DNA from: Paraoerskovia sediminicola
GTDB lineage: Bacteria > Actinomycetota > Actinomycetes > Actinomycetales > Cellulomonadaceae
DNA: 64,000 nucleotides
Assembly (NCBI RefSeq): GCF_030296575.1
Contig: NZ_AP027729.1
Location: 2,046,001-2,110,000, forward strand
Direction: 5' to 3'
Shown here: positions 301 to 13,415 of the stretch, in pieces
How positions within the stretch are numbered: the first letter of the stretch is position 1
How the letters are laid out: each line of letters starts with the position of its first letter
The notes under the pieces: generated by a model
The model's input: the letters and a program-made list of their open reading frames with translations, nothing else
Told to the model about the DNA's origin: nothing
Databases searched by the model: none
Made by a program: the position numbers and the translations under genes

Positions 301-1983
301 TCATGCCTCGTTCAGGTCCTCCGCGTCGACGATCCGGTAGGCGTAGCCCTGCTCGGCCAGGAACCGCTGCCGGTGGGCGGCGAAGTCCTGGTCGACCGTG
401 TCCCGGGCGACCACCGCGTAGAAGTGTGCCGTACGGCCGTCGGCCTTGGGGCGCATGATCCGGCCGAGGCGCTGCGCCTCCTCCTGCCGCGAGCCGAACG
501 AGCCGGAGACCTGGATCGCCACGGACGCCTCGGGCAGGTCGATCGAGAAGTTCGCGACCTTCGACACGACGAGGTGGTTGATCTCGCCCGAGCGGAACGC
601 GTCGTAGAGGCGCTGCCGTTCGCGGACCGTCGTCGCGCCGGTGATCAGCGGCGCGTCGAGGTGCTCGCTGAGCTCCTCGAGCTGGTCGATGTACTGCCCG
701 ATCACGAGCACCTGGTCCTCGGGGTGCTGGGCGACGATGCGCTCGACCACCCGGTTCTTGCCGGTGGCGCTCGCGGCGAGCCGGTAGCGGTCCTCGGGTT
801 CTGCGGTCGCGTAGACCATGCGCTCCGACTCGGGGAGGGTCAGGCGCACCTCGACGCAGTCGGCGGGCGCGATGTAGCCCTGCGCCTCGATGTCCTTCCA
901 CGGGGCGTCGTACCGCTTGGGTCCGATCAGCGAGAACACCTCGTCCTCGCGGCCGTCCTCCCGGACGAGGGTCGCCGTCAGACCGAGCCTGCGGCGGGCC
1001 TGGAGGTCGGCGGTCATACGGAAGATCGGTGCCGGGAGCAGGTGGACCTCGTCGTAGAGCACGAGGCCCCAGTCGCGGGCGTCGAGCAGCTCGAGGTGGG
1101 TGTAGACGCCCTTCCGTCGGGTCGTGAGGACCTGGTAGGTCGCGATCGTGACGGGCTTGATCTCCTTGCGGGCGCCGGAGTACTCGCCGATCTCGTCCTC
1201 GGTCAGGTCGGTGCGGCGCAGCAGCTCGTCGCGCCACTGCCGGGCGCTGACGGTGTTGGTCACGAGGATCAGGGTCGTGGTGCCCGAGCGTGCCATCGCG
1301 CCCGCCCCGACGATGGTCTTGCCGGCGCCGCAGGGCAGGACGACGACGCCGGAGCCGCCGTGCCAGAACCCCTCGATCGCCTGCTCCTGGTACGGGCGCA
1401 CGGACCACGGCTTGCGGACCTGCGCGCCGTCGTCCGACGTCGTGACCGTCTCGGTCGTGAGTGCGATCGGGTGCTTCTCGCCGTCGACGTACCCGGCGAG
1501 GTCCTCGGCGGGCCAGCCGAGCTTGACGAGGACCTGCTTGAGGTGGCCGCGTTCGCTGGGGTGGACGATCACGGTGAGGTCGTCGATCTTCTCGCCCACG
1601 AGGCCTGCGGTGCGGCGCGACTTGAGCACCTCGGCGAGCACGGCGCGGTCGAGCGCGTGCAGGACGAGCCCGTGCGCCGGGTCCTGGATCAGCTGCAGCC
1701 GCCCGTAGCGCGCCATGGTCTCGGCGACGTCGACCAGCAGCGCGTGCGGCACGGGGTAGCGGCTGTACTCCATCAGGGCGGCGACGACCTGCTCGGCGTC
1801 GTGCCCGGCGGCGCGCGCGTTCCACAGGCCCAGCGGTGTGAGCCGGTAGGTGTGGACGTGCTCGGGGGCGCGCTCGAGCTCGGCGAACGGCGCGATCGCG
1901 CGGCGGGCGTCGCGGGCGAGCTCGTGGTCGACCTCGAGCAGGAGGGTCTTGTCGCTCTGCACGATCAGCGGGCCGTCGGCCAT
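301..1983 (-). CDS. DNA repair helicase of the XPB/Rad25 family
   Basis: A superfamily 2 DNA helicase of 560 residues, the bacterial counterpart of eukaryotic XPB, expected to unwind DNA during repair. Visible motifs are Walker A (PCGAGKT, about residue 218), the DEVH box (about 309), the TAT of motif III followed directly by the XPB-specific RED motif (about 339), and motif VI (QRLGRIMRPK) near the C-terminus. The N-terminal 190 residues match the helicase-associated domain of this family. I chose the internal ATG at 1983 because GGAAGGA lies 7 bases upstream and family similarity starts at MADGPL; the open frame itself extends to 2076. It lies downstream of, and on the same strand as, the helicase-associated partner gene. 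Confidence 0.95.
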   Translation of the reverse strand: MADGPLIVQSDKTLLLEVDHELARDARRAIAPFAELERAPEHVHTYRLTPLGLWNARAAGHDAEQVVAALMEYSRYPVPHALLVDVAETMARYGRLQLIQDPAHGLVLHALDRAVLAEVLKSRRTAGLVGEKIDDLTVIVHPSERGHLKQVLVKLGWPAEDLAGYVDGEKHPIALTTETVTTSDDGAQVRKPWSVRPYQEQAIEGFWHGGSGVVVLPCGAGKTIVGAGAMARSGTTTLILVTNTVSARQWRDELLRRTDLTEDEIGEYSGARKEIKPVTIATYQVLTTRRKGVYTHLELLDARDWGLVLYDEVHLLPAPIFRMTADLQARRRLGLTATLVREDGREDEVFSLIGPKRYDAPWKDIEAQGYIAPADCVEVRLTLPESERMVYATAEPEDRYRLAASATGKNRVVERIVAQHPEDQVLVIGQYIDQLEELSEHLDAPLITGATTVRERQRLYDAFRSGEINHLVVSKVANFSIDLPEASVAIQVSGSFGSRQEEAQRLGRIMRPKADGRTAHFYAVVARDTVDQDFAAHRQRFLAEQGYAYRIVDAEDLNEA

Positions 1984-2068
1984 GCGGGTCCTTCCATCGG
2001 TCCTGGACGTTCGTCGGTCCCGTGAGCGTGCGACCTGGGCGCCTCGCGTCCGGCGGGACGCGGGGAGC

Positions 2069-2096
2069 ACCCGCACCCACGGGAGGGGGTGCGGGT
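2069..2096 (-). terminator. Hairpin after the helicase-associated gene
   Basis: A 10-bp perfect inverted repeat (arms 2069-2078 and 2087-2096, ACCCGCACCC and its complement) around an 8-base loop. It sits exactly at the stop codon of the upstream minus-strand gene and before XPB. There is no U-tract, as is common for actinobacterial terminators. It may reduce read-through into XPB. Confidence 0.55.
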
Positions 2097-4890
2097 CATG
2101 TCGGCTGGACCGACGCGATCCGGTGCACGGCGACGGTCAGCTCGGCCTCGCGCACGGTGTCGAGGGCGCGGAGCCGGCCACCGTCCAGCCGCAGGGGCCG
2201 CACCCGCCGGATCTCCGGCGTGCCACGGGTCCCCACGACCTCGAGCAGGACGTCGGTGCGCTCCTCGATCGCGTCGCGCAGCATGGCCAACGCGTCGGCG
2301 GGCTCGTTCGTTCCCGGCTCTGGGACCGGGCTGGGAGAGGTGCCGGACGGCGTCCGGTCACCTGCGGGTGCGGGCTGCGGCCGGTCGTCGCGGCCGTCGG
2401 GCTCGTCCGGGTGGCCGTCGCCGGGGTTCGTACCGTCCGCGCTTCGCTCGCCGTCGACGTCCTTCCCCTCCGACGCCCGCCACATCGCTCGTCCTCCCTG
2501 CTCGACGCTCGTGGCGCCGTCCGCTGTGCCGGTGGTGACGGTGGTGACGGCGGGTGCGCCCGTGGCCAGGAGACGTTCCGCGAGCTCGGTGAGCCGCGCC
2601 GTCCGCCGCGCCGGGTCCTCGGCCTGGTCCGGGAGGACCGAGGCCGCACGCGGGTCGGGTCGCAGCGACCGCACCCGCCGGCCCGCGACCCCGCCTACCC
2701 ACGCGGGTCGCGCGCGACCGGGGATCCGTGCTCGGGAGCCGCCGACGGCGATCACCTGCCCGTCGGGGCCCTCGACCGTCGGGGAGAGTCCGCGCTCCCG
2801 CAGGGCCGCGCGGACCTCGGCGGCCGGGGCGTGCGCGGCCAGCACGGTCGGAGCGATCGCGAACAGCCCGAGCGCGCGCAGCGCGCGGTCGTCGACGAGC
2901 CCCGCGAGGGCTGCGGGGTCGTCGCTGCGCAGGTAGCTCGTGGCGGAGCCGACGCGCAGCCGACCGTGGCGACGCGCCGCGTCGCGCACCAGGTATTCGA
3001 GGGGCTGCGGCACGGGGGTGCGCGAGTGGGAGCCGAGCGCGGCGAGGAGCTGGTCGGCGGTGCGGCCGGCGTCGAGCGCCCGTGTCACGGACGAGCCGGA
3101 GAACCGGACCGTCACGGCCGCTCCTCGGGACTCGACGTCGGCGGAGTCGGCGAGCAGCGCCTCGAGGGCAGGTCCGGGGCGCCCCGGCACGATGCCGGTG
3201 AGGTCGCCCTGGAGCAGCACCTCGTCGACCGGTGGCGGCACGAGCGCGTCCAGCGCGGCACCGAGCTCGGCCACGCGTGCCGGCGTGGGGTGGGGGAGCG
3301 TCCGCGATGCGGAGGCTGAAGCTCCTGCTGCTTCGTCGCCGCGCAGCGCCGCACCGAGCGGGGACGCCGCGCCGGCGCCGGTGATCCCGAGCGTGGCGGC
3401 CTCGGTGAGCAGGCCCTCGACGGCGGCGACCGGGGGACGGGACCGGGGGCTGCCCCAGCGCAGGACGTCCAGCACGGCGTCGGTGGTCAAGGACAGGCCG
3501 GGGTGCGCGACGAGGACCGAGAGGACCGAGGCACGCAGCCGTGGGACCCAGGGCCGGTGCAGGCCCGGGTCGAGGGCGGCGCGCAGGGCCCCCTTCTCGT
3601 CGCGCGAGCCCACGGACCACGGAGTCCGAGGGCTCACGGCCCACGAGGAGGCGAGCGCGGCCCACTGCTCGCCGACCCCGAGCTCGAGCCACTCGTCCGC
3701 GACGGTCGTCGGGGCGAAGTGCGGAGGGTCGTCGCCGTCGTCGCTGACGAGACCGGCGACGAGCGCGAGCTCGGCGACGACGGTGGCCGTCGGGGCGTCC
3801 GCGCCGAGGTCCTGCGCCGTCCGTCGCAGCTCCCGCACCCCCAGTCCGCCGCCGCGCAGCACGCCCTGCGGGTCCTCGCCCCACGACTCGACGAGGCGCG
3901 CCACCAGTCGCACGACCTCGAGGGCCGCGGTCGAGGCCTCGGCCTCGACGGTCTGCTCGGGAACCTCGCGCCCACCCGGGACCGGGGGAGCGGGTGCGGG
4001 TCGCGGTGCGTCCGCCCGTCGCGCAGGGCCAGGGCGACGTCCCGGGGGAGGACGACGTAGCGTCCGTCGGCGCGCTCCAGCAGGCCCTTGGCCAGGAGCC
4101 ACCGGGTCGCCTCGGCGCCCGCCCCGGACCGCGGGGCGACGCCGACCGGTGGGCCCCAGGTCAGGGCGCCGAGGATCTCGCGGGCACCGGGCGGTGCATC
4201 GGCAAGCGCCCCGGCGACGAGTTCTGCGGGGTCGGTCGGGTCGGCGGTGTCCGTCGGGCCAGCGGTGGCACTCGTGGCGTCGGCGGCGTGGGTCGTGCCC
4301 GCGCGCCGCGTCTGTGTCCCTGTCCCTGTCTTCGCCCCTGCACGTGACCTTGCTTCTACCCCATCCCCTGCCCCTGCCCCTGCCATCGGCTCGGGCTCGC
4401 GGGCCAGGCCGGCCGGGTGCGGACCGAGCACCTCGTCGACGCCGGGCGCCGCACGGAGCCGTCCGTCGCCGAGGTCGGGCGAGAGCTCGGCGCCGGGAAC
4501 GTCGCCACGGACAGGGACGTCGTCCGACCCGCCCCAGACGAGGCACGCGGCGGTGAGCTCGGCGAGCGCCCGGGTGAGTGCCGCGACCGCGTCGTCGTGC
4601 CGGGTGTCGCCCAGCACGGCGCGGACGACGTCGTCGATCGTCGTGCCGGGCGACGAGGCAGCGGAGCCGCCCAGGACGAGCACCGCCTCGAGCGCCTCGA
4701 TCGCCGCGGTGTCGAGCCGCGAGACCGCGATCTCGATGCTGTTGCGGCTCGTGGCGCGCGCGCCGAGCGACCGGAGGGTCGAGGGCGCGGGCACGGCCAG
4801 GTCGGGGCGTCGGTCGAGGAGGGTGACCAGCCGGTCCGCCGGGAGCGCGCGCAGCCACGGGCCGTACGGGGGCATCGGCGAGGTGGGCAT
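2096..4890 (-). CDS. Helicase-associated (XPB/Ssl2 C-terminal-like) domain protein, one frameshift
   Basis: About 930 residues. This is the actinobacterial protein with an XPB/Ssl2-like helicase-C domain but no ATPase motifs, usually encoded next to bacterial XPB. The N-terminal part begins MPTSPMPPYGPWLRALP and repeats a 'rate-lim' winged-helix pattern. The C-terminal half holds the helicase-C-like region (LLQGDLTGIVPGRP; LEYLVRDAARRHGRLRVGSA). The frame breaks at the G5 run 3984-3988; adding one G restores a continuous protein. ATG 4890 is preceded at 7 bases by TAACCT, so the mRNA may be leaderless. Partner function with XPB is inferred from family and context. Confidence 0.85.
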
Positions 4891-5091: not shown

Positions 5092-5148
5092 GGGGCATCG
5101 CGACCCGTGGAGCTCCCGGGGAGCCCAGGACGATTCAGCGAGGTTCAC

Positions 5149-5529
5149 GTGCCTACCGGCAAGGTCAAGTGGTTCGACACCGAACGTGGTTTCGGCTTCA
5201 TCGCGAGCGATGACGGCCACGAGGTGTTCCTTCACGCCTCCGCGCTCCCCGAGGGCGCCGCCCCGAAGCCCGGCAGCAAGGTCGAGTTCGGTGTCGCGGA
5301 CGGCAAGCGCGGTCCCTCCGCGCTGTCCGTGAAGCTCCTCGACCCCGTCGCGTCCGTCGCGAAGGCGCGGCGCAAGCCCGCCGACGACATGGCGGTCATC
5401 GTCGAGGACCTCATCAAGGTGCTCGACAGAGTGGGCAACGACCTGCGCCGCGGCCGGTACCCCGAGCCCGCGCGGGCCAAGCAGTACGGCACCCTCCTGC
5501 GTGCCGTCGCCGAGGACCTCGAGGCCTGA
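5149..5529 (+). CDS. Cold-shock domain protein with C-terminal extension
   Basis: 126 residues. The first 65 form a CspA-type cold-shock domain with RNP-1 (ERGFGFI) and RNP-2-like (EVFLHAS) nucleic-acid-binding motifs (GKVKWFDTERGFGFIA). The remaining 60 residues form a mostly helical extension (ADDMAVIVEDLIKVLDRVG) typical of the actinobacterial version, longer than the 67-residue CspA. GTG 5149 is supported by GAGG at 5140-5143 and by homology starting at VPTGKVKW. It is probably an RNA chaperone. DUF3027 begins 2 bases after the stop, so the two form an operon. Confidence 0.93.
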   Translation: MPTGKVKWFDTERGFGFIASDDGHEVFLHASALPEGAAPKPGSKVEFGVADGKRGPSALSVKLLDPVASVAKARRKPADDMAVIVEDLIKVLDRVGNDLRRGRYPEPARAKQYGTLLRAVAEDLEA

Positions 5530-5531
5530 GG

Positions 5532-6530
5532 ATGGGTGGACCCGTGGCATCGACGACCGTGCGCCGGCAGACCGGCGTCTCCGCCCGAGCGGCGCGCGAC
5601 GCCGTGCTCAACGGTGCCGTGGACGCCGCGCGCGAGGCTGCGGTTGGCGTTGCGAACCGCCCGGCCGACGTCGGCGACCACCTCGGGACGACGGCGCAGG
5701 CCGACCGGCTCATCTCGCACCACTTCGCGTGCAACCTCAAGGGCTACCGCGGGTGGCACTGGACCGTCACGGTCGCCCGCGTCCCGCGTGGCCGCACCGC
5801 GACGATCTGCGAGGTCGAGCTGCTGCCCGGCGACGAGGCGCTGCTCGCCCCCGACTGGCTGCCCTGGTCGGAGCGCCTGCGTCCCGGCGACGTGCGTCCC
5901 GGCGACGTCCTGCCGTTCAAGGCCGACGACCCGCGTCTCGAGGCCGGGTACACCCCGACCGGTGACGTCGAGGTCGACGAGGTCGCCATCGACGAGCTCG
6001 CGCTGGCACGGGTGCGTGTCCTGTCCCCCGAGGGGCGCGACGCCGCCGCGCAGCGCTGGTACGACGGCGACCGCGGTCCGAGCTCGCCGGCAGCCGTCGC
6101 GAGCAAGCGGGACTGCGGTTCGTGCGGGTTCCTCGCGCCCCTCCAGGGCGCGCTCGGCCAGGTGTTCGGCGTGTGCGCCGGCGAGTGGTCGCCGTCCGAC
6201 GGGACCGTCGTGAGCCTCGACCACGGCTGCGGCGCGCACTCCGAGACGGACGTGGCCCCGCACCCGAGCGACTGGCCCGAGCCGTCGGCGATCATCGACG
6301 AGACGACCCTCGAGGTCGTCGACGTCCCGCGCGGAGCGCCGGCGCAGGCCGAGCCCGAGGCGCAGGCCGAGCCTGCAGGGTCCGCGGAGCCCGAAGCGCA
6401 GGCCGAGCCCGTCGCGTCGGTCGAGCCCGAGGCGCAGGCCGAGCCTGCAGCGCCGGCGGAGCCCCAGGCTTCGAGCGAGCCCGACCCGTCCGCCGGAGCA
6501 GCTGGAGCGGCGCAGACCGCCGAGCCGTGA
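5532..6530 (+). CDS. DUF3027 protein with Glu-Pro-Ala repeat tail
   Basis: 332 residues. The body matches the actinobacterial DUF3027 family (HHFACNLKGYRGWHWTVTVARV near residue 63; CGSCG and two later Cys around residues 195-235 that could bind zinc). The function of the family is unknown. The last 60 residues are a degenerate tandem repeat of AEPEAQAEP, coded by near-repeats at 6340-6470, and look like an unstructured tail. The ATG lies 2 bases after the cold-shock gene, and the Hsp90-like gene follows at 28 bases. The same order is common in related actinobacteria. Confidence 0.88.
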   Translation: MGGPVASTTVRRQTGVSARAARDAVLNGAVDAAREAAVGVANRPADVGDHLGTTAQADRLISHHFACNLKGYRGWHWTVTVARVPRGRTATICEVELLPGDEALLAPDWLPWSERLRPGDVRPGDVLPFKADDPRLEAGYTPTGDVEVDEVAIDELALARVRVLSPEGRDAAAQRWYDGDRGPSSPAAVASKRDCGSCGFLAPLQGALGQVFGVCAGEWSPSDGTVVSLDHGCGAHSETDVAPHPSDWPEPSAIIDETTLEVVDVPRGAPAQAEPEAQAEPAGSAEPEAQAEPVASVEPEAQAEPAAPAEPQASSEPDPSAGAAGAAQTAEP

Positions 6531-6558: not shown

Positions 6559-9500
6559 GTGACGACCGACCCGTTCGGCACAGCCGGCCTGCGCGCCGCA
6601 GTCGCACGGGCCTGGCTCGAGTCGCCCGCGCGGTTCCGGGAGGACGCGAACACCGAGGAGGACTTCGGCCCCGGGCACTACGCCGGGCGCCTCGTCACCG
6701 AGCTCGCGCAGAACGCCGCCGACGCCGCCGCGCGCGCCGGCGTCCCCGGCCGTCTGCACCTCGAGCTGGTCGAACCTCCGTCGGAGCGGCCTGACGGGAC
6801 GCCCGCGGTGCTCGTGGCCCGCAACACCGGCGCGCCCCTCGACCGGGCGGGCGTCGTGGCGCTCGCCGGCATGCGCGCGTCGGCGAAGCGCGACGCGGAG
6901 TCCCAGGTCGGTCGGTTCGGCGTCGGCTTCAGCGCGGTCCGCGCGGTGTCGGACGACGTCACGGTCGCCTCGCGGTCCACCGGCGGCGTGCGCTTCTCCC
7001 TGGAGGCGACGCGCGAGCTGCTGGCTGGCCTCGGGAACGAACGTGGCGCTGACGTCGCCGAGGAGACCGGAGGTCGGGAGGCCGTAGAGCCGCTGACAGC
7101 CGAACACCCTGCGGAGCGCCGTACCGAGCTTGGTGCCGAGGTCCGCCGTCGGGGAACGTCCCTGCCGATGCTCCGGCTCCCGTTCGAAGCCTCGCTGATC
7201 GGGGACGTGACCGCCGATGCCCCGGGCCTCGATGCGCACGACCGCTACGAGACCGAGGTCCACGTCGTCCTGCGCGACGACCAGGCGACGGCCGCCGTCC
7301 GCGGCGAGCTCGCGGCCCTGGACGACCTGGTGCTCGTCGCGCTGCCGGCCCTCGACGAGATCACGGTCGTCCACGCCGGGGACGTGAGGGTGCTGCGGGA
7401 CGTCGAAGACCGCTGGGTGGTCGTCCGCGACCACGGCACGTTCCCGCCCGGCGACGGGGCACGGGTGGAGGACGCGGCCACCTGGGACGTCGCCTGGGCG
7501 CTGCCGCGCGAGGGCGGCGCACCCACAGGACCAGGGGCGAGCGACGCCGTCCTGCACGCCCCGACGCCCACGGCCGAGGCGATGGCGTTCCCCGCGGTGC
7601 TGCTCGCCTCGTTCCCGCTGGACCCGTCCCGTCGCCACGTCGTCGACGGCGAGGCCGCACGGACGGTCGCGCGGCACGCCGGAGCGGCGTACGCCCGGCT
7701 GGCGGAGGAGGTCGCCGCCCGGCCGGCGACCACAGGCCTGCACGTCCTCGACCTCGTCCCGACGGGCCTGCCCGGCTCGGCGGTCGACGCGCTGGTCCGG
7801 GATGCCGCGATCGAGGCGCTCGCGGCCGCGCCGGTGCTCGAGGCCGGGTCCGGCACGGACGCCGACCCCGATCCTGACCTCGCGCCCGGTCCAGGACGGG
7901 TCGCGCCGCGCGACGCCACCTTCGTCGCAGGCGACCCCGGTCAGGACCCGGCCGTGCTCGCCGCGCTGGCGCCCGGGACCCCGGGGCTGGTCGCCGTGAC
8001 CCCTGAGCAGGCTGCGCGGGCCCGCGCGTGCGGCGTGCAGCGGGCGGACCTGGCGGACGCCGTCGCGCGGGTCCCCGACGGTCTCTCGCCCGAGCGCTGG
8101 CGCGACCTCTACGCAGCGTTCGAGCCGTGGATCGCCGACGCCTCGGTGCGCGAGGCGCTCGGCACGGTCGCCGTCCCGCTCGCCGACGGCCGGGTGGCCC
8201 GCGGCGCACGGGGCCTCGTCCTGCCCACGGGAGCGGCGGCGGACCCTGATGTCTCCGGGGCTTTCGCCGCCCTCGACGTGCGGACGGTCCACCCGTCTGC
8301 GACCCACCCGGTCCTCGAGCGGCTCGGTGCGCGGTCGTCGGACGCCTTCGACGTGCTCGTCGGCGTGCGGGACGCCGTGGTCGCGGCCTCCGCCGATGTC
8401 CTCGACGGTGCTGCCGACGACGTCGAGGCGGACCGTCTGCGCGACGCCGTGCTCGGACTCGTCGCCGCAGCGCTGGCGGACCGGCCCGGCCTCGACCCGG
8501 ACCGGTTCCCGTTCTGGCTGGGCGAGCTGCCCCTCCCGGTGCGACACCTCTCCGAGGACGGGGCGTCCGACGCCGATCCCGCGCCGGCGCGGGAGTCCCT
8601 GCTCCCGGGGTCGCAGGCCGCGACGCTGCTCGACCTCCCTGCCGTCGCGGACGCGCTGGTCGGGCGCTGGGGCGAGGCGGTGCTCCGCGCGGTCGGCGTG
8701 CGGTCTGCGGTGGGCGTCTACGTCGTCCCCGACGTGCTGACCCCCGACGAGACGGCCGACGCGGGACCCCACGCGGAGGCGATGGCCGATCTCACCGCGC
8801 CGTCGCCCGACGACCCGGCCCCCTGGCTCGACGGCTGGCGCGTGTACCTCGAGGACGTGGCGGACGCCGTCGGGCACTCGGCCCACGTCGGGGACCTCGC
8901 GGCCGTCGCCGACCTCGACTCTGCTGCCGACCCCGCCCGGATGCTGCGGGCGGTGGCGCAGGACCGGGCCGCGCGGGCCGCGCTGCTCACCCCCGTGCGT
9001 GGTGCCGCCGGCCGGACGCACCCGTCGTACGCCGCGTGGTGGTTCGCCGGGCTGGGGGCCGCGTTCGCGCTCCCCGGGTCGGACGTACCCCTGCTGCGCG
9101 CGTGCCCCTACGACGGCCTCGACGAGGCGGTGCTGCGCGCGGTCGGTGGCGTGTCGACCCTCGCGGGGCTCGACGCGCTCGGCTGGGCGGAGGCGCTCGA
9201 CGGCCTGCCCGACGTGGGCGAGAGCGTCGATCCGGCGGTCGCGGTCGCGGTGTGGCGAGGGCTCGCCGAGGCTGCCGACGCGCTCGACGACGCGGGTCGG
9301 GCGGCGTTCGCGGACGACGTCGACCGCCTCCCCGTGCAGGACGGCGGCCGGTGCGTCGTCGTCGACGTCGCCGACGTCGTGGTCGCCGACGTCGCGTGCT
9401 GGGCCCAGCTGCGTGCCGTGGTCCCCGCTCCCGCGGGTCGTGCGGACGAGCTCGCGGACCTGCTCGACGTCCCGGTCGCGGAGGACCTGCCACCCGACGC

Positions 9501-9828
9501 GCCCGATCCCACGGCTCCTGCGGAGGCGGCGCCCCCGACCGAGCACGACGTCCCGGCGGCCGTGCGAGAGCTGTTCCCGGCGGTGCCGGTCGTCTGGACC
9601 GAGCACGAGGACCTACGGGTCGACGGCGTCGAGGTCGACTGGTGGGTCAGCGGACCGGACCGTGCGCGCGCGGCTCACGCCGCGACGTCCGACGGGCTCG
9701 CGAGGGCGCTCGCTGCCGCGAGCGGGAGGTTCGAGGACCGGCACGCGATCCTCGCCGTGCTGCTGAGCCCGGAGGACTCGACGGCGGTGCGACTCGACTC
9801 CGCCTGGGACGGTTACACGCCGCGGTAG
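6559..9828 (+). CDS. Hsp90/sacsin-like ATPase-domain protein
   Basis: 1089 residues, GTG start. The N-terminus carries a GHKL-type ATP-binding fold: an N-box ELAQNAADAAARAG (about residue 47), RNTGAP in place of the DxGxG motif, and GRFGVGFSA (about 117). This resembles the sacsin/Hsp90 N-terminal ATPase. A low-complexity insert (about 155-195, Glu/Gly/Ala-rich) interrupts the ATPase region. The rest is a long actinobacteria-specific body of unknown fold, rich in Asp, Ala and Val. No membrane segments or signal are seen. It is conserved in position between DUF3027 and DUF2530. Chaperone-like activity is an inference from the ATPase fold only. Confidence 0.85.
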   Translation: MTTDPFGTAGLRAAVARAWLESPARFREDANTEEDFGPGHYAGRLVTELAQNAADAAARAGVPGRLHLELVEPPSERPDGTPAVLVARNTGAPLDRAGVVALAGMRASAKRDAESQVGRFGVGFSAVRAVSDDVTVASRSTGGVRFSLEATRELLAGLGNERGADVAEETGGREAVEPLTAEHPAERRTELGAEVRRRGTSLPMLRLPFEASLIGDVTADAPGLDAHDRYETEVHVVLRDDQATAAVRGELAALDDLVLVALPALDEITVVHAGDVRVLRDVEDRWVVVRDHGTFPPGDGARVEDAATWDVAWALPREGGAPTGPGASDAVLHAPTPTAEAMAFPAVLLASFPLDPSRRHVVDGEAARTVARHAGAAYARLAEEVAARPATTGLHVLDLVPTGLPGSAVDALVRDAAIEALAAAPVLEAGSGTDADPDPDLAPGPGRVAPRDATFVAGDPGQDPAVLAALAPGTPGLVAVTPEQAARARACGVQRADLADAVARVPDGLSPERWRDLYAAFEPWIADASVREALGTVAVPLADGRVARGARGLVLPTGAAADPDVSGAFAALDVRTVHPSATHPVLERLGARSSDAFDVLVGVRDAVVAASADVLDGAADDVEADRLRDAVLGLVAAALADRPGLDPDRFPFWLGELPLPVRHLSEDGASDADPAPARESLLPGSQAATLLDLPAVADALVGRWGEAVLRAVGVRSAVGVYVVPDVLTPDETADAGPHAEAMADLTAPSPDDPAPWLDGWRVYLEDVADAVGHSAHVGDLAAVADLDSAADPARMLRAVAQDRAARAALLTPVRGAAGRTHPSYAAWWFAGLGAAFALPGSDVPLLRACPYDGLDEAVLRAVGGVSTLAGLDALGWAEALDGLPDVGESVDPAVAVAVWRGLAEAADALDDAGRAAFADDVDRLPVQDGGRCVVVDVADVVVADVACWAQLRAVVPAPAGRADELADLLDVPVAEDLPPDAPDPTAPAEAAPPTEHDVPAAVRELFPAVPVVWTEHEDLRVDGVEVDWWVSGPDRARAAHAATSDGLARALAAASGRFEDRHAILAVLLSPEDSTAVRLDSAWDGYTPR

Positions 9829-10067
9829 TCCGCGCGGTGCTTCTTCTCCCAGACGAGCCCGACGAGGCCCAGTGAGACGCCTGCGACGCAGATCAGGACG
9901 TGCCGCAGCGCCGTCACGTCCAGGATCATCAGCAGGCCGCAGACGATGCCGGCCACCACGAACACCGCGATACCGACGAGCAGGATCGGCCGCAGGTCGA
10001 CCCGCAGCGGCTCGGGCGCGGGCCTGCGTGTCTCGGGACGGAGCACGAGGTGGACGTGGGAGGGCAC
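9813..10067 (-). CDS. DUF2530 small membrane protein
   Basis: 84 residues with two hydrophobic helices (ILLVGIAVFVVAGIVCGLLM and a segment ending VSLGLVGLVW) and a basic C-terminus (WEKKHRADYRGV), matching the DUF2530 family. It is convergent with the Hsp90-like gene and overlaps its last 16 bases. The GTG at 10067 lies 6 bases from a TAGGAT -10 element (10074-10079 on the minus strand), so the mRNA is probably leaderless. Function is unknown. Confidence 0.85.
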   Translation of the reverse strand: MPSHVHLVLRPETRRPAPEPLRVDLRPILLVGIAVFVVAGIVCGLLMILDVTALRHVLICVAGVSLGLVGLVWEKKHRADYRGV

Positions 10068-10362: not shown

Positions 10363-10392
10363 GGCGGCTATTCATATCCGGAGGTGTGGCCA

Positions 10393-11889
10393 GTGAGTGG
10401 AATCGTGACGGACGTCGTCAGCGACGTCCGCGGGCGACTCCTCGGGGCCCACACCGTCCCCGGTGCGCACGTCCGCAGCCCGATCTCGTGGATCGCGCTG
10501 CACCGTCGACGCATCGCCGTCACCGACTCCGCGGCCGTGGTCCTCGCCATGCTCGTGACCGTCCTGCTCGCGCACTACGGCGTCGTCGGCACGACGACGT
10601 CGCTCGAGGTGCTGTCCGCCTTCGCCGGAGTCATCGCGACCGCCTGGATCGTCGGCCTCTCGTTGATGAGGACGCGCGACGTGCGGGTGCTGGGACGTGG
10701 CCCGGCGGAGTACCAGCGGGTGTTCCTCGCGTCCTGGTGGTTGTTCGCGTCCATCGCCGTCGTCTCCTACGTGACGACGCTCGAGACGTCGCGCGGGTTC
10801 GTCCTCGTCGCCTTCCCGCTCGGGCTCGGTGCGGTCCTGGTCTCGCGGCTCGCCCTGCGCGGGAGCCTGCGCAAGGCCCGCGCCGCCGGCGTCGCGGCGC
10901 GGTCGGTGGTCGCCGTCGGCCGCCGGGAGCAGGTCTCGCGTCTCGTCCACGACTTCCACGACGACCCGATGTCGGGCTACCGCGTGATCGGGGTCTGCAT
11001 CCCCGGGGCGGAGCAGGCGGGCGACTCGACGGTGGCCGGTGTCCCGGTCCTCGGGGACCTCGAGTCGGCGGCCTCTGTCGTCGGCGTCACCGACACCGAC
11101 TGCGTCGCCGTGGCCGGCTCCGACGCCATGACCGCGGACGCCGTGAAGCGGCTGGGCTGGGCCCTCGAGCCCGCGGGCGTCGACATGATGCTCACCACCG
11201 AGCTCATGGACGTCGCCGGGCCCCGGATCATGGTGACGCCGACCGAGGGGATGTCCCTCGTCCACGTGGACGCCCCGCGCTTCTCGGGCCCGCGGTACGT
11301 CCTGAAGTCGACGATCGACTGGTTCGGCGCGCTCGCCATCACCGTCGTCCTGGCGCCCGTGATGATCGGCATCGCGGCGGCCGTCGCAATGACCAGCCGC
11401 GGCCCGGTGCTGTACCGGCAGGAGCGCGTCGGCCGCAACGGTGACACCTTCGGGATGCTCAAGTTCCGCTCGATGCGCACCGGGGCCGACGCCGAGGTCG
11501 CCGAGCTCGCGGCGGAGAACGACGGCTCCGGCCCGCTCTTCAAGATGCGCGACGACCCGCGCGTGACCCGCCTCGGCAAGGTCCTGCGCCGGTACTCCCT
11601 CGACGAGCTGCCCCAGCTGTTCAACGTGCTCCGCGGCCAGATGAGCCTCGTCGGCCCGCGCCCGCCCCTGCCCGTCGAGGTCTCGGCGTACGAGGACCAC
11701 GTCCACCGCCGCCTGCTCGTCAAGCCGGGCCTCACAGGTCTGTGGCAGGTCGGTGGCCGGTCCGACCTCAGTTGGGACGCGAGCGTCCGGCTCGACGTCT
11801 ACTACGTGGAGAACTGGACGATCTTCCTCGACCTCATGCTCATCGCGAAGACGGCCCGGGCCATCGTGTCCGGCTCAGGGGCGTACTGA
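10393..11889 (+). CDS. Polyprenyl-phosphate sugar-1-phosphate transferase (exopolysaccharide priming)
   Basis: 498 residues, WbaP/CpsE-type initiating glycosyltransferase. It would load a hexose-1-phosphate onto undecaprenyl phosphate at the membrane to start an extracellular polysaccharide or cell-wall glycan. There are four N-terminal membrane helices, a CoA-binding-like middle (VIGVCIPGAEQAG...), a fifth hydrophobic segment (about residues 310-335) and the catalytic block KFRSMRTGAD ... YSLDELPQLFNVLRGQMSLVGPRP ... LVKPGLTGLWQV. I prefer GTG 10393 over GTG 10384 because GGAGG (10380-10384) then sits 8 bases upstream. It stands alone, 54 bases before the purine permease. Confidence 0.93.
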   Translation: MSGIVTDVVSDVRGRLLGAHTVPGAHVRSPISWIALHRRRIAVTDSAAVVLAMLVTVLLAHYGVVGTTTSLEVLSAFAGVIATAWIVGLSLMRTRDVRVLGRGPAEYQRVFLASWWLFASIAVVSYVTTLETSRGFVLVAFPLGLGAVLVSRLALRGSLRKARAAGVAARSVVAVGRREQVSRLVHDFHDDPMSGYRVIGVCIPGAEQAGDSTVAGVPVLGDLESAASVVGVTDTDCVAVAGSDAMTADAVKRLGWALEPAGVDMMLTTELMDVAGPRIMVTPTEGMSLVHVDAPRFSGPRYVLKSTIDWFGALAITVVLAPVMIGIAAAVAMTSRGPVLYRQERVGRNGDTFGMLKFRSMRTGADAEVAELAAENDGSGPLFKMRDDPRVTRLGKVLRRYSLDELPQLFNVLRGQMSLVGPRPPLPVEVSAYEDHVHRRLLVKPGLTGLWQVGGRSDLSWDASVRLDVYYVENWTIFLDLMLIAKTARAIVSGSGAY

Positions 11890-11943
11890 AGCTCACGTGA
11901 GCATCCTGCGGAGATCCCGTGCGCATCTGGCACGATGGCGCGC

Positions 11944-13415
11944 ATGACGCAGCAGACCGACCCGGCCACGACGCCGGCGCCCGACGGGGCCCTCGACCGC
12001 TTCTTCAAGATCTCCGAGCGCGGCTCGACCGTGGGGCGCGAGGTGCGTGGCGGTCTCGTCACCTTCTTCGCGATGGCCTACATCATCGTGCTCAACCCGC
12101 TGATCATCGGGACCGTCCCCGACGGCACCGGGAACTTCCTCGGGGGCGGTGACGCACCGAACTTCGCGATGATCTCGGCGGCGACCGCGCTCGTCGCCGG
12201 GGTCCTGACCCTCGCGATGGGGTTCTTCGCGAACTTCCCGCTGGCGCTCGCGGCCGGGCTCGGGCTCAACGCCGTCGTCGCCTACTCGATCGCTTCTCTG
12301 CCCGACATGACGTGGGCCGACGCGATGGGGCTCGTCGTCATCGAGGGCCTGATCATCCTCGTCCTGGTGCTCACCGGTTTCCGCGAGGCCGTCTTCAAGG
12401 CGGTCCCGGTCGAGCTCAAGACGGCGATCAGCGTCGGCATCGGGCTGTTCATCGCGCTCATCGGCTTCGTCAACGCGGGGTTCGTCACCACCGGCAACGG
12501 CACGCCGCTGCAGCTCGGCGTGAACGGGTCGCTCGAGGGTTGGCCGATCGTGGTCTTCATCATCGGGCTGATCCTCACGATCGTGCTCTGGGTCCGCAAG
12601 GTCCGCGGCGCGCTGCTCATCGCGATCCTCACGGCGACCGCGCTCGCCGTCGTCGTGGAGAACGCCCTGCACATCGGCGCGAAGAACCCGGACGGCAGCA
12701 ACCCGCTCGGCTGGAACCTGAACGCACCCGCGTTCGACGGCGTCGTCGCCACCCCCGACTTCGGGCTGCTCGGCCAGTTCTCGCTCCTCGGGTCGTTCGA
12801 GAAGATCTCGGCGGTCACCGTCGTCCTGCTCGTGTTCTCGCTGCTGCTCGCCGACTTCTTCGACACGATGGGCACGATGGTCGCCGTCGGCGGCGAGGCG
12901 AAGCTGCTCGACGAGCACGGCAACCCGCCGCGCACCCGGGCGATCCTCGTCGTCGACTCCTCGCGGCCGTCGCCGGTGGCGCGGGCAGCGTGTCGTCGAA
13001 CACGAGCTACGTCGAGTCCACGACCGGTGTCGGTGAGGGTGCCCGCACCGGCCTCGCCTCCGTGGTCACCGGTGTGGCGTTCCTCCTGGCGACGTTCCTG
13101 TCGCCGCTGGTCGCCCTCGTCCCGTACGAGGCGGCGGCGCCGGCCCTGGTGTTCGTCGGGTTCCTGATGATGACGCAGGTCGCCGGGATCCGGTGGACGG
13201 ACGTCGAGATCGCGATCCCCGCGTTCCTCACCATCGTGGTCATGCCGTTCACCTACTCGATCAGCGACGGGATCGGTGTCGGGTTCGTGGCGTTCGTCGT
13301 CATCAAGCTCGCGCTCGGCAAGGTGCGGCAGATCCACCCGCTGATGTGGCTCGCGGCCGCGATGTTCGTCGTGTACTTCACGCTGGGGCCGATCGAGGCT
13401 GCGCTCGGGATCTGA
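11944..13415 (+). CDS. NCS2/AzgA-type purine permease, one frameshift
   Basis: About 490 residues, a multi-helix membrane transporter of the NCS2 family, AzgA branch (guanine/hypoxanthine/xanthine uptake by proton symport). Family markers are FAMAYIIVLNP near the start, GLGLNAVVAY and DFFDTMGTMVAVGGEAKLLD, then SVSSNTSYVESTTGVGEGARTG. The frame breaks at the CC of 12959-12960; one added C joins VVDS to LAAVAGGAGS. ATG 11944 and ATG 11935 are both possible; neither has a clear Shine-Dalgarno site. manA starts 6 bases after the stop. Confidence 0.9.

Follow-up and report, generated by a model that had tools for sequence, protein, structure and literature searches.

GHKL ATPases of the Hsp90 and sacsin type have arms that clamp; sacsin is a human protein linked to ataxia. 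The ATP residues given for sacsin in PMC9880540 are E116/N120/D123, G188/G191/G193 and, as the arginine, R474. The defence system Tiamat is described in PMC10482375 as enriched in Actinobacteria and almost always chromosomal, with its mechanism unknown. PMC4255298 names DUF3027 (SCO4330, ML2142) among the signature proteins of actinobacteria, and PMC7781554 has it as Rv0877. Here we describe a gene of Paraoerskovia sediminicola that encodes a sacsin-type ATPase and stands directly behind a DUF3027 gene. It lies in a stretch of 64,000 nucleotides (assembly GCF_030296575.1, contig NZ_AP027729.1, positions 2,046,001 to 2,110,000 of the forward strand), which was analysed as a whole and is called the window. 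The pairing with DUF3027 is the strongest clue to the function of this ATPase. The two genes and the parts of the ATPase have the following window coordinates.

6559..9828, + strand: sacsin-type (Hsp90-class, GHKL) ATPase of 1089 amino acids (open reading frame, NF047352, structure model)
6616..7428, + strand: GHKL N-terminal domain, residues ~20-290, with E48, N52, D55, G118, G121 and G123 (NF047352, fold match to sacsin SR1, conservation)
7456..7827, + strand: Hsp90-middle-like domain, residues ~300-423, with the invariant pair R358-R359 at bases 7630-7635 (match to 8eob_B, conservation)
7828..9825, + strand: C-terminal body, residues 424-1089 (~665 residues), no Pfam match (Pfam, model, fold search)
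9595..9648, + strand: conserved C-terminal motif, residues 1013-1030, around H1016, L1019, G1023, W1028 and W1029 (family alignment)
5532..6530, + strand: DUF3027 protein of 332 amino acids, Pfam expect value (E) 3.3e-83 (Pfam, model)

An earlier note, made from the letters of the window alone, had proposed a Hsp90/sacsin-like GHKL ATPase at 6559-9828. The open reading frame was re-read and encodes 1089 residues from a GTG start on the forward strand, and the NCBIfam model NF047352 (P_loop_sacsin) matched residues 44-136 with 71 bits, over its curated cut-off of 50, so the proposal was borne out and the N-domain belongs to the sacsin-type ATP-binding family. The Pfam families SACS and HATPase_c gave E 0.0016-0.0017, both under their own cut-offs (18.8 bits vs 32.8 for SACS, PF25794). 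The Pfam scan returned one N-domain match only; DnaJ, HEPN, UBL, nucleic-acid-binding domains and a helicase or NOV_C end were not found in it. PF00183 (Hsp90 protein) gave no match at E 0.01, and the NCBIfam HSP90 family protein model reached 18.5 bits against a cut-off of 455. Across the DUF3027-linked loci read, the ATPase has a length of 840-1163 amino acids. No publication on this bacterial ATPase family was found among the literature listed, a coverage without bioRxiv preprints and without most subscription papers.

The structure of the ATPase was predicted with AlphaFold from 42 aligned family members, and the model had a mean predicted local distance difference test score (pLDDT) of 87.5 and a predicted template modelling score (pTM) of 0.63. 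The best fold match was to the N and middle domains of Hsp90 (8eob_B), over model residues 21-423 (Z 13.7, root-mean-square deviation (rmsd) 5.5, 285 residues aligned), and human sacsin SR1 (5v44_C) matched residues 21-282 (Z 13.2, rmsd 3.2, 180 aligned). SMCHD1 followed at Z 13.0, tied with the Hsp90 and sacsin scores. Because the Hsp90 structure matches span residue 20 to about 423, an Hsp90-middle-like domain belongs to what the earlier note had called a body without recognisable domain; the last ~665 residues remained unmatched.

Conservation was counted over 101 aligned rows, in which one genome was entered twice. N52, D55, G91, G118, G121, G123, R358 and R359 were invariant (101/101), while E48 was glutamate in 99 rows and aspartate in 2, and A56 was alanine in 99 and serine in 2. 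E48, L49, N52, D55, A56, G118, G121 and G123 match the sacsin ATP residues given in PMC9880540 in spacing, and the E/N/D set and the G-x-x-G-x-G loop were both found at sacsin spacing. Judged from its position, one or other arginine of the R358/R359 pair would be the counterpart of sacsin R474 and Hsp90 R380. In common with eukaryotic sacsin (SIRPT/SR1), the protein thereby has the GHKL N-domain, the spacing of the ATP residues and, in its middle-like domain, a candidate catalytic-loop arginine, whose equivalence to R474 is positional. Eukaryotic sacsin has three N-domains as well as UBL, DnaJ and HEPN domains, whereas the ATPase has one N-domain and, in Pfam, neither the three SIRPT modules nor any of these additions; the likeness covers SR1, the part of sacsin that entered the comparison. 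The lid region (residues 109-120) was modelled with pLDDT < 50, which might fit a moving part. The predicted Hsp90-class engine looks complete: its N-domain has kept the ATP residues and its middle-like domain carries the arginine pair. The ATPase very likely binds and hydrolyses ATP.

Behind this engine, residues 424-1089 were mostly modelled at high confidence, and no effector domain was recognisable in the ~665 residues. Matches from a PDB search with the whole model filled the engine (residues 9-500), so no fold is claimed beyond ~500. Tandem repeats in the body were considered and are not claimed: a profile-profile comparison between segments of it gave probabilities of at most 7.9%, with single E-values down to 7.6e-4.

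The close pair of the gene run is DUF3027 and the ATPase. Among 80 related loci collected from genome contigs, 79 have DUF3027 ahead of the ATPase on its strand, 78 of them at no more than 200 bp; the remaining locus (L086) has 2 bases before the gene. The gap in the window is 28 bp, and with DUF3027 upstream on its strand the window protein falls into the DUF3027-coupled actinomycete sacsin family as defined here. Together with 3 plasmid-labelled records and 20 further genomes, 103 loci were examined, and both genes lay on one strand in 100. The spacing was measured in the 98 distinct loci left after dropping the L086 artefact (-3240 bp) and a duplicate (L166 = L092), with start codons chosen by alignment: the genes overlap by 4 bp in 52 and are separated by at most 100 bp in 89. 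The arrangement is like that of one operon, as judged from the gene spacing. The distances of the two proteins correlate (Mantel r 0.79, reached in 0/999 permutations, 49 pairs), with a mean identity of 45% for the ATPase vs 55% for DUF3027 over the same pairs, which means that the ATPase changes faster.

A survey of 296 genomes of the class Actinomycetes found DUF3027 in 292 and the ATPase in 146, once 7 of 153 genomes whose matches were weak or confined to the N-terminus had been set aside. Adjacency was counted in the 94 ATPase-positive genomes that were listed. A same-strand DUF3027 gene precedes the ATPase by no more than 1 kb in 77 of them and by no more than 5 kb in another 4, and 6 further genomes keep both genes at most 9 kb apart: G164 and five in which the genes lie on opposite strands, 1.0-3.9 kb apart (G421, G476, G485, G505, G514). 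The G164 locus (L163, family f18) has 8.4 kb between the genes on one strand, with about 8.2 kb of extra sequence. The genes were far apart or on different contigs in 7 of the 94, six of them from family f98; at an annotated f98 locus the ATPase still faces DUF2530, near purine-synthesis genes.

DUF3027 was present in 148 of the 150 class genomes without the ATPase, with weak matches in 15 of them. An apparent joint loss of both genes in G526 was rejected; its contig breaks off within the ATPase gene, so that the upstream region is missing. In the other three class genomes that lack a DUF3027 match, completeness is 75-82%. A survey of 296 genomes across the phylum found DUF3027 in 26, namely the 26 members of the window's class that had been drawn; 14 of them had a full-length ATPase, and three genomes outside the class gave partial N-terminal ATPase matches only. 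On a FastTree tree of 51 rows, the family labels required 15 changes, the least possible being 13 and the shuffled mean 29.9; 43 of the 51 rows were labelled and 8 were not, and the labels mix NCBI names with group codes. None of 50,697 phage records matched the ATPase. Matches were found in 3 of 72,556 plasmid records, all amid core chromosomal genes and none mobilizable. Two PLSDB "plasmids" of 11.9 and 2.7 Mb (NZ_LT559118.1 and NZ_LN868939.1) carry the core chromosomal block and look like mislabelled chromosomes or pieces thereof. We read the ATPase gene as ancient, chromosomal and handed down by vertical descent within the class Actinomycetes, with what appear to be repeated losses. The single shared slot makes repeated gain unlikely, and the counts cannot prove loss over gain.

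The DUF3027 protein was modelled with a mean pLDDT of 60.7 as an alpha/beta N-domain (residues ~20-104) that resembles cystatin/NTF2-like sheets, a conserved cysteine motif (C195, C198, C215, C233, H236), which is possibly zinc-binding, and a low-complexity tail. The best fold match of the N-domain was a designed protein (Z 8.8). Foldseek gave no match to the model at E 0.001, and a sequence search of the PDB returned four short matches (E 0.0034-0.61), none convincing. One BCG isolate has a frameshift in the Rv0877 gene (PMC7781554), so DUF3027 may be dispensable there. More than five transposon insertions in SCO4330 are reported among mutants with lower actinorhodin (PMC6585502); in Streptomyces they could also act through a downstream gene. 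Searches of the literature by gene name found no role for DUF3027.

In 15 class genomes, from families f17 and f6, DUF3027 gave no more than weak matches (E 1e-15 to 1e-27), and none of the 15 is among the 146 ATPase carriers. At the four such loci that were read (L225-L228), the N-domain is kept, an acidic tail stands in place of the cysteine-motif half and the full ATPase is absent. The C-terminal half was considered as the ATPase-binding part and rejected, as the 17 other ATPase-less loci (L183-L197, L200, L201) all keep the motif. The loss of this half together with the absence of the ATPase amounts to at most two events and is suggestive only.

The ATPase also matches a profile for TmtA, the Tiamat defence protein. 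The PADLOC profile PDLC03964 matched residues 11-438 at E 1.3e-31, covering profile positions 16-410 of 1538, and this N-terminal match was obtained for all 42 aligned family members. In 118 class genomes the profile hit 68 places at E 1.3e-21 or better, and 65 of these, compared by eye, were the ATPase family; the remaining three were proteins with open frames of 1565-1610 amino acids. The scores overlap, the best DUF3027-linked ATPase reaching 152.9 bits vs 153.6 for the longer proteins. A full-length match to the TmtA models (~1300-1780 amino acids) was not obtained for the window ATPase. Sacsin-type proteins of 1541-1801 amino acids were observed outside the DUF3027 locus at G218:C19, G282:C40, G314:C3, G299:C34 and G213:C10 (L203-L207). 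Against the TmtA models, L205 matched throughout (5-1779 of 1782), L206 over most of the length and L203, L204 and L207 in the N-terminal part; by sequence they are probably Tiamat or Tiamat-like, and not all of them surely Tiamat. Pfam scans of three of these longer relatives showed an SF2 helicase at the end of two and NOV_C at the end of the third. They and TmtA have the N-plus-middle ATPase engine in common with the window ATPase, which lacks such an end and is tied to DUF3027. The Tiamat calls made in actinobacteria may partly be the DUF3027-linked ATPase, depending on models and thresholds. The survey that names Tiamat as enriched in Actinobacteria is that of Georjon and colleagues, and its calls may include this family.

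HtpG/Hsp90 shares with the ATPase the fold and the ATP residues of the N and middle domains, but the ATPase does not reach PF00183 or the NCBIfam HSP90 cut-off. No HtpG candidate was found in the window genome, which is 87.6% complete. PF00183 was over its cut-off in 72 of the 296 class genomes and at E < 1e-100, the threshold at which HtpG was called, in 52. Both proteins occurred in 37 genomes, HtpG only in 15, the ATPase only in 109 and neither in 135 (Fisher p 6.8e-4 towards co-occurrence, uncorrected for phylogeny). Rows named RIIA in a viral structure library also matched the ATPase, loosely (rmsd 5.3-27.3), and the PHROG match to RIIA was weak (E 0.02). RIIA is phage-borne and has no known link to DUF3027, unlike the ATPase.

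The wider neighbourhood consists of the following genes.

301..2076, - strand: XPB-type helicase, flank of the conserved block (annotation)
2096..~4938, - strand: Helicase_C_3 protein, flank of the conserved block, frame break near 3970-4000 (annotation)
5107..5529, + strand: cold-shock domain protein with a C-terminal extension, likely start GTG 5149, chosen by eye (profile match)
9813..10067, - strand: small DUF2530 protein, E 5.3e-6, 27 bits vs 25.5, convergent with the ATPase and overlapping it by 16 bp (profile match)

The run in the window is thus the cold-shock gene, DUF3027 and the ATPase in one direction, with DUF2530 facing them, and all the neighbours named by the earlier note were matched in their places. 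The cold-shock gene ends 2 bp before the DUF3027 start; given gaps of 2 and 28 bp, the three genes look like one operon. In many lineages an MFS gene stands between the cold-shock gene and DUF3027. Of 100 loci with 1.5 kb or more of room, 79 have a convergent DUF2530 gene no more than 3 kb downstream of the ATPase, 2 have a match on the same strand and in 19 none was found; two genomes enter this count twice, and L180 and L209 both come from genome G405. The full gene order is present in an annotated Tsukamurella record. The gene-neighbourhood survey thus agrees with the earlier note that this is a conserved gene set and not a chance run; the refutation named there, a lack of conserved co-occurrence in other genomes, was not borne out.

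Its further suggestion, that the four genes form one stress or RNA-maintenance module, was not upheld. Of 17 loci from ATPase-less genomes, all keep DUF3027 and, downstream of it, one or more of NCS2, MarR and SerC, while 15 keep the cold-shock gene upstream, and four more such loci (families f17 and f6) have the cold-shock gene and DUF3027 with DUF2530 or SerC beyond; these neighbours therefore do not need the ATPase. The separate location in f98 and the intervening MFS gene point the same way. A stress (cold or heat) or RNA role for the ATPase is an unsupported possibility, as nothing found here speaks for or against it. Three side observations concern genes of the window. The Helicase_C_3 gene is matched by its orthologue at L058 in two frames, which would be an assembly error or a real break. 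An NCS2 permease gene (11932-13412, + strand) has a frame break near 12960, beyond which its orthologue runs on in a different frame as far as 13412. An exopolysaccharide sugar transferase gene (10384-11889, + strand) lies downstream of DUF2530; it is near in some relatives (Cellulosimicrobium) and out of reach in others.

The explanation we favour, to which we give an even chance, is that the ATPase is a housekeeping chaperone or remodeller of the Hsp90/sacsin type, with DUF3027 as its likeliest client or partner. The proposed machine would be a single-module ATPase consisting of the GHKL N-domain, the Hsp90-middle-like domain with its ATP-contacting arginine and the ~665-residue body. On ATP binding the lid would close over E48/N52/D55, R358/R359 would be brought onto the gamma-phosphate, the arms would probably clamp, and hydrolysis would allow them to reopen. 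The body and the conserved C-terminal motif would hold the client, most likely the cysteine-motif protein DUF3027 or a complex containing it, and the ATPase would fold, assemble or remodel it. Since DUF3027 persists in nearly all ATPase-less genomes, it would be a client or partner and not a mere co-chaperone. Several observations weigh against this explanation. About half of the genomes carry DUF3027 without the ATPase, so that the client must manage alone there, and the near-universal presence of DUF3027 means that a phylogenetic profile adds nothing. The ATPase lies apart from DUF3027 in all six f98 genomes listed, so co-translation is not obligatory. Vertical inheritance alone would yield correlated distances and kept adjacency; gene order is kept even for genes without an evident link, so adjacency alone proves little, and ATPase-DUF2530 adjacency is likewise common. 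The pTM of only 0.63 leaves the domain arrangement uncertain, a defence profile of PADLOC matches the ATPase, and the idea of an HtpG replacement was rejected, as no mutual exclusion was seen in the 296 genomes. A broader proposal, that ATPase and DUF3027 form a dedicated housekeeping machine of the Hsp90/sacsin class in actinomycetes, 109 of whose 146 carriers lack full-length HtpG, and that many Tiamat calls are this same chaperone, is possible but doubtful.

Three other explanations were weighed against the chaperone. The ATPase may be a passenger, a housekeeping chaperone or clamp unrelated to DUF3027 and held in place by a rarely rearranged chromosome region. Genomes of the class that have the ATPase and genomes that lack it alike retain much of the block from XPB/Helicase_C_3 to SepH/SerC, and f98 retains the ATPase apart from DUF3027, but the 4-bp overlap in 52 of the 98 loci is tighter than position alone requires. 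The five opposite-strand genomes, with their genes still close, are compatible with a passenger or a partner, and we consider the passenger rather unlikely. A defence role, with the ATPase as a Tiamat-like (TmtA) innate sensor of phages that became fixed on the chromosome of actinomycetes, would be suggested by the PDLC03964 match in every member, by repeated absence and faster change than DUF3027, which would fit conflict, and by Tiamat itself being Actinobacteria-enriched and almost always chromosomal (PMC10482375). The match is nevertheless confined to the ATPase engine, and the helicase or NOV_C end found in 3/3 longer relatives scanned is missing. One common locus in most families, a tree that follows taxonomy, the coupling to DUF3027 and the absence from the phage and mobilizable-plasmid records searched are unlike most defence genes, which makes a defence role unlikely. 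A nucleic-acid clamp of the MutL/MORC/SMCHD1 kind, acting with the nearby helicases and the cold-shock protein, appears very improbable. The ATPase modules of MORC2, Morc3 and SMCHD1 are among the fold matches and helicase and cold-shock genes are neighbours, yet these matches cover that same engine and score no higher than Hsp90 and sacsin, the helicase genes run in the opposite direction, the cold-shock gene is often split off by the MFS gene, and the Pfam scan gave no nucleic-acid-binding domain.

The ATPase encoded with DUF3027 offers a concrete handle on the role of DUF3027. If the chaperone reading is true, a one-module bacterial sacsin would make the sacsin ATP cycle testable in a simple, genetically tractable host. 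Should defence catalogues include this ATPase under Tiamat, the published finding that Tiamat is enriched in Actinobacteria needs re-examination.

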